Source: Smittium mucronatum (taxonomy: Eukaryota; Kickxellomycota; Harpellomycetes; Harpellales; Legeriomycetaceae). From it: 29,604 nt of DNA. Positions 18,613-28,073 of this stretch are shown here, one piece after another (position 1 is the stretch's first letter; every line of letters begins with the position of its first letter). The position numbers and the translations under genes were made by a program. The DNA lies in assembly GCA_001953115.1 (NCBI GenBank), contig LSSL01000328.1:1-29604 (forward strand). Direction: 5' to 3'. The notes beneath the pieces are model-generated. The model saw nothing but the letters and a program-made list of their open reading frames with translations, did not search any database and was not told where the DNA came from.

Positions 18613-18627
18613 AATAAAAGAACACGT
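18613..18627 (+). repeat. Target-site duplication, left copy
   Basis: aataaaagaacacgt here is identical to 19828-19842. The last T could also belong to the poly(T) of the insertion. It defines the limits of the young family R insertion. Confidence 0.85.
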
Positions 18628-18713
18628 TTTTTTTTTTTTTTGTATCACGGAATTTTATTGTAAGATAACGTCATTAAAAACTATACTAAAAAAATTTGAA
18701 AAAAAGAAAAAGA

Positions 18714-19129
18714 CGTATAGAAAAGACTATTATCTTAACTACAATTAGCTCCTCTGCCGGACTACCGGCTGCGTACCTACGGGAAAAGGGTTCAATCTAC
18801 CAACCACCAAATAATACCCTGGCATTGCTTCAAGTAGGCTGGATGACTGAGGTTACGTGCAGTCATGAATTAAGCTCTTTGTCAATGAAAAACAGTTCAT
18901 TGAAGCTATTGAGCTCCTAGTCAGAGCCTACTTCTAACAGGATTAATAAAATTAGGCTCCTACCCAAACGTGGGTTTGATCGACATGGCTTTCCTACAAA
19001 TAGCTGTTAGACGCTGAGATCCGTCTGACTGTCGAACGCTGGACTTGTGCACTAGACTATGTCTCAGCTGTGCTAAACGATCGGTTCCTCCTGTTTCGAG
19101 ATGGTCCTCCTCTGGAATCGCTGTCCTCC
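18714..19129 (-). repeat. First copy of the 416-bp block duplicated around the assembly gap
   Basis: Appears base-for-base identical to 19237-19652, in the same orientation and of equal length, ending exactly where the N run begins. Confidence 0.95.
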
Positions 19130-19236
19130 NNNNNNNNNNNNNNNNNNNNNNNNNNNNNNNNNNNNNNNNNNNNNNNNNNNNNNNNNNNNNNNNNNNNNNN
19201 NNNNNNNNNNNNNNNNNNNNNNNNNNNNNNNNNNNN
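19130..19236. other. Assembly gap of 107 N
   Basis: A run of undetermined bases. The sequence to its left ends and the sequence to its right begins inside the same element, with a complete 416-bp overlap between the flanks, so the gap is probably not real sequence. Confidence 0.99.
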
Positions 19237-19652
19237 CGTATAGAAAAGACTATTATCTTAACTACAATTAGCTCCTCTGCCGGACTACCGGCTGCGTACC
19301 TACGGGAAAAGGGTTCAATCTACCAACCACCAAATAATACCCTGGCATTGCTTCAAGTAGGCTGGATGACTGAGGTTACGTGCAGTCATGAATTAAGCTC
19401 TTTGTCAATGAAAAACAGTTCATTGAAGCTATTGAGCTCCTAGTCAGAGCCTACTTCTAACAGGATTAATAAAATTAGGCTCCTACCCAAACGTGGGTTT
19501 GATCGACATGGCTTTCCTACAAATAGCTGTTAGACGCTGAGATCCGTCTGACTGTCGAACGCTGGACTTGTGCACTAGACTATGTCTCAGCTGTGCTAAA
19601 CGATCGGTTCCTCCTGTTTCGAGATGGTCCTCCTCTGGAATCGCTGTCCTCC
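19237..19652 (-). repeat. Second copy of the 416-bp block duplicated around the assembly gap
   Basis: Same sequence as 18714-19129. Only this copy continues into the 5' part of the retroposon with the tandem repeat and the ribozyme. Confidence 0.95.
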
Positions 19653-19656
19653 GAAT

Positions 19657-19742
19657 CGCTGTGCGCTATCTCCACTACTCCCAACCAAGAATAGTGCAAC
19701 GCTGTGCGCTGTCTCCACTACTCCTAACCAAGAATAGTACAA
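19657..19742 (-). repeat. Two tandem 43-bp units behind the ribozyme
   Basis: 19657-19699 and 19700-19742 differ at only two positions, and a partial third unit (cgctgtgtg) starts at 19743. The old copy at 5.4 kb has one unit, so the doubling is probably a derived state. In the element's sense each unit includes ctattcttggttaggagta, placed directly after the 3' arm of ribozyme stem P2. Confidence 0.9.
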
Positions 19743-19748
19743 CGCTGT

Positions 19749-19827
19749 GTGAAATTTTAGTCTAGTGTACTTCGAAAAGTACACTATTAAGCCCCTAAAC
19801 CACGGCAAGGTATTTCACTCTTAGGGG
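19749..19827 (-). ncRNA. HDV-like self-cleaving ribozyme at the retroposon 5' end (predicted)
   Basis: Numbering the minus-strand RNA from the element's first base (19827 = 1), all helices of the HDV fold can be drawn. P1: 1-7 (CCCCUAA) with 30-36 (UUAGGGG). J1/2: 8-9. P2: 10-16 (GUGAAAU) with 73-79 (AUUUCAC). P3: 17-19 (ACC) with 27-29 (GGU), closing a 7-nt L3 (UUGCCGU). P4: 42-51 with 56-65, ten perfect pairs closed by a UUCG loop. J4/2: GACUAAA, with C68 (plus-strand 19760) followed by UAA, as at the catalytic cytosine of HDV ribozymes. P1.1 is weak: G22-C23 could pair with G36-C37 only if P1 shortens by one pair. Cleavage would fall exactly at the element's 5' end, as known for R2-type and related retroposons. 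Position 1 is C rather than the usual G. Confidence 0.8.
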
Positions 19828-19842
19828 AATAAAAGAACACGT
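19828..19842 (+). repeat. Target-site duplication, right copy
   Basis: Identical to 18613-18627. It directly abuts the first base of the element and of the ribozyme. Confidence 0.85.
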
Positions 19843-21055: not shown

Positions 21056-22230
21056 TTATATCCCTGAAAAAAAGTCACTGATATACTCAAAAAATTTAGT
21101 GTATTTATTTTCCTTCCACTTTGTATATCTATCTTTTAATTTTCTATTGAAACTTTCCAAAATTTTGTTTGTTGAAGGCGAAAATAAGTTGTATCCATTA
21201 TAACAGTTGTCATTTTTTTGTAAATAAAATTAATATATTTTCTTAATCACATTATTTAACTCGCTTAAATATTTCCATTTTTTGAAGAAAATATGCTTTG
21301 GTATTTGTTAAATTTCAATATTTAGCGAAATTCGGGGGATTTTTTTGATCCACTTGTACTTTATTTTTTAATAATGGATAATTTATTTTAGGCTTTTCGT
21401 CATATTTTTGGGTATACGAAACAAAAATGAATTCTTTTAGTTTTATATTGAAATTTTGCAACCAAATTTGAAATTTTCTGAGCATAATCTGCAATAATTT
21501 TTCCTATATTCCAGATTAATATAATTGTCTTAAGTTTAATTTCAAGGGCTCTCAGTATCCAGGAATAAGAATCTTCATTATTTCTGCTTACATCTCCTAT
21601 TGATATCTGATAGAAAGATTTTTTATTATCTGAAATCCCAGAGATTACAGCAGGGTATTTACCCTGAATCATAATAAATTTTGAATTAAGGTGCATATTC
21701 TCAGCATATGAAAGCATTTTGACTGAGCCTTCTGGGGTAATCAAACCCCTTAGATCATGCACATCGGATAAATAAGATTCCAATTAAGTTTCTTTAGAAA
21801 AAATTTTCAATTTTAAAAACTCACACATATTAGTGAAATCATCCAGAATTGTTTTGTTGATTTTTCCCCTCCTATTTTGACTCATTTTTGATGACTTTAT
21901 ATATTTTATCAATTCCAACTACCATTCCAGTCTTACTTAAAATGCTTTAAAAATTACCAGACTTATGTCCAATATTTTTAACTTTCAGAATTTTTCATTT
22001 TATATCTTTATTTTCCGTTATGATACATTAATCTGAATGTGAACCATTCAAATGTTAGGTTTTATCCATCATAAATTCCACACAGTTTTATCATCGCAGG
22101 ACATTTAAATTTGTTAAAATTTTTGCTGTAGAATAATGAAGACTCTTAATTTTTAAGTTTTTTGAATATCGTTTCTTCCAAAATTATAAGTATTCCGAAT
22201 ACTCCAAACAATCTTAATCAGCAAATTATT
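21056..22230 (-). pseudogene. Mutator-like (MULE) transposase remnant, lineage 1
   Basis: MULE transposases cut and paste DNA with a DDE active site. The longest open piece is 21400-21783 on the minus strand. It includes KYPAVISGISDNKKSFYQIS, SRNNEDSYSWILRALE and ADYAQKISNLV, matching the family order of a core strand (YP-L--G--D----F), an E--E-Y-W----L helix and the second-Asp region. Downstream, 21056-21208 gives PSTNKILESFNRKLKD, the conserved STN--LES-NR block, then a stop. Upstream, about 21990-22125, KFKCPAMIKL and a later YHNG resemble an N-terminal FLYWCH-type zinc finger. Several stops and frameshifts separate the pieces. It differs in sequence from the other MULE in this window, so it is a separate lineage, possibly inserted within it. 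Confidence 0.65.
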
Positions 22231-25221: not shown

Positions 25222-26210
25222 ATGAGCCCTCAAGTAGGTGGGCGTCTACCTATGTTCGTAACGGCATGGACCAGATTAATGGACAGCCGCTGGATCCGGG
25301 TAATGGTGAAAAAATAATTCATAATCCCATTTAAAGATCTAGTATCTCTCAAGTCGAACCCGTCTTAGGTGAAAGCAGAAGCTGACACCGGAAGAAAACA
25401 AGGTTATCACGGAGAAAGTATCATCACTTCTCACAAAGAGGGCAATCGGGGAGGCTCGATCGAGTTACCTAAGTTTTTACAGTAATCTCTTCGTGATACC
25501 CAAGAAGACAGGAGGACTCAGACCAGTTCTAGATCTGAAGAGGCTAAATGTTCATTTTCAAGAAAGAAACTTTAAAATGGAGACCCTAGAAACGATATGA
25601 AGAATGATACGCGGGAAGGATTACATGACTTCTCTGGATTTGGAAGATGCTTTCATGCACGTTCTTATCCACAAGTCATGCAAAAAATACCTCAGATTCT
25701 GTTGGAATAGGAAGTCATACCAGTTCCGGGTCCTTCCTTTTGGAATATCGCTCAGTCCTCATACATTTAACAAGGTGCTAAGACCAATACTGAAATGGGC
25801 TCGATGCCAGGGAATCAGGATCTCTACATACCTTGACGACCTCCTTATTCTAGAAGATTCAAAGGAGGTATGATCATCTAATACGGACAAGATTTACTAC
25901 AAGCTAGAAAAATTGGGGTACAAGATCAACCCAACTTAAGGAAATCGACAATTTCTCTTTTTCAAACGATTTTTCATCTAGAGATGCGTATAAGCTCAAG
26001 GGATATGATGCTATTAGTACCACCATCAAAGGTCAGAGATATACGCAGGGAAGCCAGCAAGCTTCTGAAAACTGGAAGGTAGCTCTGAAGAGCCTGGTGA
26101 GCTTCATAGGGAAGGCACAAGCAATGTCAGTTGCACTGTTACCCGGTCACCTAACGTTGAGGAGGCCCCTAGAACTGAAGAACAGCTGTCTGTCAAGGTC
26201 GAGATGTTGA
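25222..26210 (+). pseudogene. DIRS reverse transcriptase remnant
   Basis: An N-terminal block in frame 1 (GGRLPMFVTAWTRLM, then a stop at 25315) leads, after a frameshift near 25370, into a long frame-2 stretch from 25379 to 25873 with a single internal stop (TGA 25598-25600). It contains FVIPKKTGGLRPVLDLKRLN, MTSLDLEDAFMHV (catalytic Asp), LPFGISLSPHTFNKVLRP and YLDDLLI (the YxDD active site, intact). All catalytic aspartates are kept. Beyond 25873 frames shift: VRDIRREASKLL (about 26032-26067) and SLVSFIGKAQAMSVALLPGH (about 26090-26155) are the connection region typical of DIRS polymerases. It is recognisably functional in ancestry but broken now. Confidence 0.93.
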
Positions 26211-27212: not shown

Positions 27213-28073
27213 AGAACCTGCAAGAATATAACATCTGCCATATCCCCACCTCAGATAGTAAACTGTCTCGCAGAAGTTTACAAGGATATGAAACTAAAGG
27301 TCGGCACAGTTCGTGCATACAAGTCCGCAATATTGATGCTCGTGGAAAATCCAGAATAATTGAAGAATGTTAAAATATTTAAGGGGTTCTTTGGCGCTCT
27401 GAAATATGCTTCATTAACTTCGTTCGTTAGGCCTTCAATCGACATCACTCCAGTAATAACCCAAATCAGAGACTGGGTGACTATAGAAAAACTGAATGAA
27501 AAAGACCTCACATCAAAACTCAGTTGATTAATAGCTGTAACCGGATTCCTTCGAGCATCGGACAGTCATCGGATAAACGATATAAGGACAGTTTTTGATC
27601 TTGGTACGCTAAAGTTTGTAATAGTGGCACCCAAAGAAAAGCGCAATAGACGCCCAATTATTAGCCTGTGTCAGATATCCAGACATCCTGATCCTATTAT
27701 GTGCCCAGTTTCCACATATGAGGTTTACAAACTCAGAATCGCTCAAAATCCGTGTCCAATCCCTCACAACTATAACAGCTCTCTTGCAGTCAACCGACTG
27801 CTGAGGTATCTAAAGGATCACTCTAAGCCTCTAACGTTGGATAGTATCACACGATACATACACACATCATCAGGTCTTATAGGACGCCCACCGAACACCC
27901 TAATACCGAAAGCACGTGCGATTGGAGCTACTCTTGATTCCTCTGCTGGGGTATCGGCTGAAGACATAGTTACACACGCTTTTTGGTTAAACTAATCTAT
28001 GCTTGAATCGTATTATAGACTCTCAAGAAGCTCCACAGGAAACTTGACAAAATCTATTTTACCTTTGGAGTAA
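27213..28073 (+). pseudogene. DIRS tyrosine recombinase, one frame with three stops
   Basis: This enzyme integrates the circular DIRS DNA. A single frame runs 287 codons, broken only by stops at 27357, 27525 and 27993, with no frameshift. The N-terminal core-binding part contains VGTVRAYKSAILMLVENP and LTSFVRPSIDITPVI. The catalytic part has GFLRASDSHRI (first Arg), VIVAPKEKRN (conserved Lys strand), CPVSTYEVYKLR, then LIPKARAIGATLDSSAGVSA (second Arg, in R--G), EDIVTHAFW (His-Trp position) and, after the last stop, MLESYYRLSR carrying the nucleophile Tyr. All catalytic-type residues are present. The reading ends with TAA at 28071-28073, which overlaps the first bases of the internal complementary region. 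No start codon can be chosen with confidence. Confidence 0.9.

Follow-up and report, generated by a model that had tools for sequence, protein, structure and literature searches.

The retroposon family R of Smittium mucronatum, one copy of which lies on the minus strand of a 29,604-nucleotide stretch of DNA (contig LSSL01000328.1; hereafter the window), very probably opens with an HDV-type ribozyme: its 79-nt head can be arranged as a double pseudoknot, and this fold would likely free the RNA of the non-coding, poly(A)-tailed element at its very first base. At the level of sequence, our analysis supports the core of the original prediction, namely that an HDV-like fold marks the exact 5' end of a carrier that had not been described.

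Read from element position 1, the sequence provides, on paper, a nested double pseudoknot made of P1, P2, P3 and P4, in the HDV order and with HDV lengths (Table 1), and all 27 pairs of the predicted fold are Watson-Crick. Every part of the architecture first proposed (four helices of 7, 7, 3 and 10 pairs, a 7-nt L3, a UUCG-capped P4 and a C-U-A-A in J4/2) is present in the sequence. MFE folding of the 79-mer returned P1, P3 and P4 together (z -2.89; 2 of 200 shuffles were equally stable); P2 is missing from this fold because the folding program forms no pseudoknot, and taken as a lone duplex it amounts to -5.0 kcal/mol.

Table 1. Features of the family R copy and of its predicted ribozyme, in window coordinates.
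Feature	Position	Strand	Details
5' 591 nt of retroposon (family R)	19237..19827	-	
Predicted HDV-like ribozyme	19749..19827	-	predicted cut between 19828 and 19827; from sequence, folding and descriptor
P1, 5' strand	19821..19827	-	CCCCUAA; 7 pairs with 19798-19792; the first base is C, paired to G 19792
J1/2	between P1 and P2	-	GA, two bases
P2, 5' strand	19812..19818	-	GUGAAAU; 7 pairs with 19755-19749
P3	19811-19809 with 19801-19799	-	ACC/GGU, 3 pairs; P3 and L3 together 19799..19811
L3	19808-19802	-	UUGCCGU, 7 nt; U at L3 position 1, G at position 6
P1, 3' strand	19792..19798	-	UUAGGGG
J1.1/4	between P1' and P4	-	CUUAA
P4	19786-19777 with 19772-19763	-	UAGUGUACUU-UUCG-AAGUACACUA; 10 pairs, UUCG loop
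J4/2	19756..19762	-	GACUAAA; predicted catalytic C at 19760
P2, 3' strand	19749..19755	-	AUUUCAC
Two 43-nt tandem units	19657-19699, 19700-19742	-	directly after ribozyme
Second copy of 19237-19651	18714..19128	-	415 bp, 100% identical, beside N run
3' end	18627..18713	-	AATAAA 18654-18659; poly(A) 18627-18641
Target-site duplication, 5' copy	19828..19842	.	15 bp, AATAAAAGAACACGT
Target-site duplication, 3' copy	18613..18627	.	15 bp, AATAAAAGAACACGT

Two features had initially been regarded as weak points, the C (not G) at position 1 and a poor P1.1, and, in view of what is described for HDV-like ribozymes, the first does not count against the ribozyme and the second probably does not either. 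Fungal HDV variants, of which 230 representatives from 26 species are described and two were shown to cleave, typically have a C-G pair at the cleavage site (PMC5640933). The trypanosomatid element L1Tc also appears to begin with C if, as we infer, the primer named 5'Pr77, which begins with C (PMC4748587), starts at +1; the L1Tc ribozyme cleaves upstream of +1 (PMC8190864). By inspection, P1.1 of the predicted ribozyme would comprise a single possible G-C pair (19806 with 19791) and a U-U, which may lie within range, as P1.1 is described as having one or two pairs (PMC4908430).

The start of the element is constant among its copies. The first 36 nt of family R gave 706 genome matches (up to 3 mismatches), compared with 0 for a reversed-pattern control; the true copy number may be somewhat below 706, because some contigs repeat the same flanks. 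Two DNA similarity searches were also performed, in which the best 40 of 1,597 and the best 40 of 2,711 candidates were scored. Of 63 distinct 5' ends taken from the fetched loci, 59 have C as their first base and 49 open with CCCC. Because the 5' part served to select most of the loci, these figures reflect a constant start rather than the share of truncated copies. The base preceding these ends is mixed (T in 24, A in 22, C in 9 and G in 8). Many contigs among the loci picked by the 3' part break inside the element. The original prediction had named 5' ends that do not begin at the fold as evidence against it; other copies do begin there, with the same first base between unrelated flanks, and exceptions are few (the first bases are missing from L017, L021, L032, L034 and L052).

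The target-site duplications mostly place the boundary at the same base. In the window, the 15-bp duplication AATAAAAGAACACGT adjoins the first base of P1, as had been stated. Target-site duplications (score 9 or more) were detected in 12 of the 30 complete copies and in 5 of 870 cross-pairings; nine of the 12 are 12-15 bp long. Excluded beforehand were copies that contain N or lie close to a contig edge, copies whose 5' match begins after base 8, and copies whose flank had been counted before. With L017 and L052, which are missing the first 5-6 bases, set aside, nine of the ten duplications belonging to copies that are not 5'-truncated adjoin base 1 with nothing added, including that of L063, which is weak because of a CAA repeat; the tenth (L060) has one extra C, as has a lower-scoring duplication in L047. 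A junction to which no base has been added agrees with an uncapped template, although it does not prove one.

The description of the element as a poly(A)-tailed, apparently non-coding retroposon is borne out by its poly(A), its target-site duplications, its many dispersed copies and its lack of a long frame (in a 677-nt element, the longest stop-to-stop frame has 72 codons in the sense and 76 in the antisense direction). The AATAAA starts 18 nt upstream of the poly(A) run. In the window the element appears too long by about 520 bp, as the 415-bp repeat at 18714-19128 is likely an assembly or scaffolding duplication (window 18714-19236 with the N run included); corrected for this, the element measures approximately 663 nt plus poly(A). 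Sorted by length, 19 of the 30 complete copies measure 612-622 nt and six 658-664 nt, while five differ (574, 587, 597 and 947 nt, and the window copy at 1187); the step of about 43 nt between the two classes suggests subfamilies with two units and with one unit.

A SINE transcribed by RNA polymerase III would share much of this appearance, its constant 5' end being a transcription start and its 5' hairpins serving another purpose. The size of family R is indeed SINE-like, poly(A) and the lack of a long frame agree with such an origin, and an A box-like TGGTTTAGGGG lies at element positions 26-36. However, the nearest loose B box lies at 324 and there is no strict B box in the element, ARAGORN detected no tRNA, the window has no Rfam match, and the element contains, from position 50 on, T runs of 4-7 that would likely stop polymerase III. 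Moreover, such an origin would leave the full HDV signature at position 1 unexplained; hence, we regard a polymerase III origin as unlikely and favor the HDV-type ribozyme as the source of the constant 5' end.

In HDV-like ribozymes, the catalytic C of J4/2 is followed by N-A-A. The window ribozyme has this C-N-A-A motif at C 19760, and the A-A-A of J4/2 is kept in 50 of 50 copies of our alignment A1, which holds 50 distinct copies after three of 53 distinct 5' ends (L032, L090 and L052) were dropped for missing first bases. A genome-wide count in one exact context finds the predicted catalytic C in 409 of 426 copies, the other 17 having A (10), U (5) or G (2); in A1, divergent copies included, 42 of 50 copies retain it and the remaining eight have A (7) or U (1). 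A trans U/G pair in L3 is another signature of HDV-like ribozymes (PMC3386971); by our own numbering, the U is first and the G sixth in L3, and A1 retains them in 50 and 47 of the 50 copies, respectively. Subfamilies differ mainly at J4/2 positions 66 (G/A) and 69 (U/C), as well as immediately downstream of the ribozyme. We observed A at the catalytic place (AAAAUAAA or GAAUAAA) in L055, L066, L057, L050:393-476, L054 and L063. Such A-for-C copies possibly form a subfamily with a weakened ribozyme and nearly the same 5' end; since some C-less copies share AAAAUAAA, an older subfamily may lack the catalytic C.

Covariation among the copies is weak. Across 50 distinct copies, 93.7% of the cells are paired, compared with a shuffled mean of 93.3; double-change cells number 6, where the value for shuffles is 1.7 (1 of 500 reached 6) and that for slid controls 5-11, and double changes affect 3 of the 27 pairs, against 4-7 pairs in slid controls. 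They comprise G-C to A-U at P4 46-61 (three copies of A1), C-G to U-A at P1 2-35 (two copies) and A-U to G-C at P3 17-29 (one copy). Outside A1, L104 has a clean C-G to U-A exchange in P1 (CUCCUAA/UUAGGAG) together with a J1/2 of one base, a spacer length that left another HDV-like ribozyme with little activity (PMC4908430). In the genome-wide pattern search, U61 accompanies A46 in one of eight copies (strict context) and A35 accompanies U2 in two of 22 (L104 being one of the two), while a base other than G stands at 35 in seven C2 copies. The mostly uncompensated changes genome-wide, and with them the weak covariation, are attributed to neutral decay, in which dead copies mutate freely, and they weigh little either for or against the ribozyme.

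The same observations could be taken to mean that the fold is a relic, i.e., that an HDV-like ribozyme was active in an ancestral LINE or short element, whereas the present 5' ends are kept by template jumping or by a promoter within the first 79 nt, as in Pr77. The weak covariation fits this scenario, and so does the replacement of the predicted catalytic C in a minority of copies, some of them an apparent subgroup. Additionally, CGTG at element +24 to +27 (window 19804-19801) resembles the DPE of Pr77 at +25 to +28 (PMC4748587), but L3 and P3 alone could require these letters. Given that the helices are intact in the most uniform copies and that 409 of 426 copies keep the predicted catalytic C, we consider a mere relic unlikely, and a ribozyme that would still free the RNA at its first base remains our preferred reading.

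Descriptor searches point in the same direction. An HDV descriptor tolerant of G-U pairs recovered the ribozyme site at element position 1 on the minus strand. Dinucleotide shuffling of the 79-mer yielded no match at position 1 in 60,000 sequences, and shuffling of the 591-nt part of the element yielded, in 1,500 sequences, one that matched somewhere on the element strand. In the window as a whole the descriptor reported two sites, the ribozyme and an unrelated G-U-rich site at 21267 on the plus strand, while 20 whole-window shuffles contained one site. A second descriptor, to which the L3 U/G signature was added and in which longer P4 loops were allowed, was applied to the fetched loci, which overlap in part and total 298,585 bases. 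It gave 36 sites script-labelled as family R and four more that are plainly family R (L028, L041, L082 and L086), besides two distinct places outside the family, one in four overlapping or duplicate loci and one in L028. The Rfam-type covariance search that the original prediction had proposed was unproductive, as the curated HDV families gave no match: there was none at the gathering score in the window and six loci, and a search of 201 bases at E up to 10 retrieved no HDV family, its two hits both belonging to other families. That a conserved, hairpin-rich 5' end resembles an HDV ribozyme by chance is hardly conceivable: the lack of an Rfam match would fit, as would the unrelated second site of the loose descriptor in the window and the two in the fetched loci, but no shuffle matched at position 1, L3 and J4/2 carry sequence signatures besides the helices, and the start of the fold coincides exactly with the first base of the element.

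On this reading, copies of family R would be read through within host RNA polymerase II transcripts, the ribozyme would cleave during transcription and leave a 5'-OH end, and the 3' end would be set by cleavage and polyadenylation. We infer that a LINE mobilizes the family, its reverse transcriptase presumably copying the released RNA in trans by target-primed reverse transcription. As a part of the element, the ribozyme would be carried into every full-length new copy, which could thereby regenerate its exact 5' end at any site of insertion. More tentatively, as a suggestion that could well prove wrong, we propose that family R is a promoterless retroposon in which the ribozyme replaces an internal promoter, so that any polymerase II read-through would yield a perfect, uncapped, full-length template; it would then be the first short fungal retroposon with a ribozyme at its head.

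A profile search with RVT_1 gave at least 151 matches (the best 150 of 605 candidates were scored). A parent LINE with the same ends was not found in three short pieces upstream of presumed LINE frames (L100, L102 and L103, placed by estimate) and one piece downstream of such a frame (L101). These four pieces contain no HDV site, and their only matches to the element are short low-complexity or poly(A)/T-run matches of 10-16 nt, and one of 29 nt at 76% in a T run. L099 was rejected as the parent, as we read its frame as that of a Ty3/gypsy-type LTR element; the locus (C1333:1-9500) holds two tandem RT-bearing stretches that share 99.8% identity across 4,285 bp and are spaced 5,215 bp apart. 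The window itself contains a degenerate reverse transcriptase domain at 25496-25933 on the plus strand (RVT_1, 78.1 bits, two TGA). The ORF at 27624-27995 has no Pfam match and looks recombinase-type; the two are perhaps parts of one decayed retroelement. A scan of viral contigs gave one relative of the ORF at 27624 (41% over residues 38-71) and no ribozyme pattern.

The host belongs to the Harpellales (Kickxellomycotina), an early-diverging lineage. The Smittium group lives in the gut of insect larvae. A close relative is described as having the same habitat (PMC12611240). A 339-aa frame in L013 is 100% identical to a Smittium mucronatum protein and 79% identical to a protein of S. culicis. 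Our literature search, with subscription papers mostly outside it, found no paper that places an HDV-like ribozyme in Harpellales or in any fungal retroposon.

Ribozyme-defined 5' ends are already known for R2 and for trypanosomatid elements. If our reading is true, a fungal family that is non-coding, present in high copy number and equipped with a plain HDV fold would indicate that this trick arose or spread well beyond these two, and its hundreds of natural copies would allow one to measure which ribozyme mutations stop amplification.

The CPEB3 ribozyme reportedly has a 7-nt L3 and a P1.1 made of one G-C pair and a U-U, and it would resemble the window ribozyme in both respects. It maps to the CPEB3 gene of mammals (PMC4908430), whereas the family R ribozyme heads a retroposon. 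The fungal HDV variants share with family R the C-G at the cleavage site and fungal hosts, but their P4 contains an E loop and an additional base separates their P2 from P3 (PMC5640933); family R is ruled out as a member of this E-loop class, since its P4 is a plain 10-bp hairpin and its P2 abuts P3. The main text of that survey never uses the word 'retrotransposon' (PMC5640933). In R2 and R2-derived non-autonomous elements, self-cleavage frees the RNA from the host co-transcript and sets the 5' end (PMC3774820, PMC3414825), and we propose that the same may happen in family R; R2, however, inserts site-specifically in 28S genes (PMC3774820, PMC3414825), whereas the flanks of family R are unrelated and its duplications, where detected, are mostly 12-15 bp. 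A further parallel in arrangement is L1TcRz/Pr77 of the trypanosomatid L1Tc, NARTc, RIME and SIDER elements, which is likewise an HDV-like fold of approximately 77-79 nt at the extreme 5' end, heads both LINEs and their short non-coding relatives, and has a reported promoter function (PMC4035085, PMC4748587, PMC8190864). The two differ in sequence and kingdom, and for the trypanosomatids a coding LINE with the same ribozyme is known, whereas none was found in the pieces that we read for family R. Hence, judged from its sequence, family R is best read as a fungal retroposon with a putative HDV-like ribozyme at its head, an arrangement like that of L1Tc/NARTc and R2 in a new branch of life.
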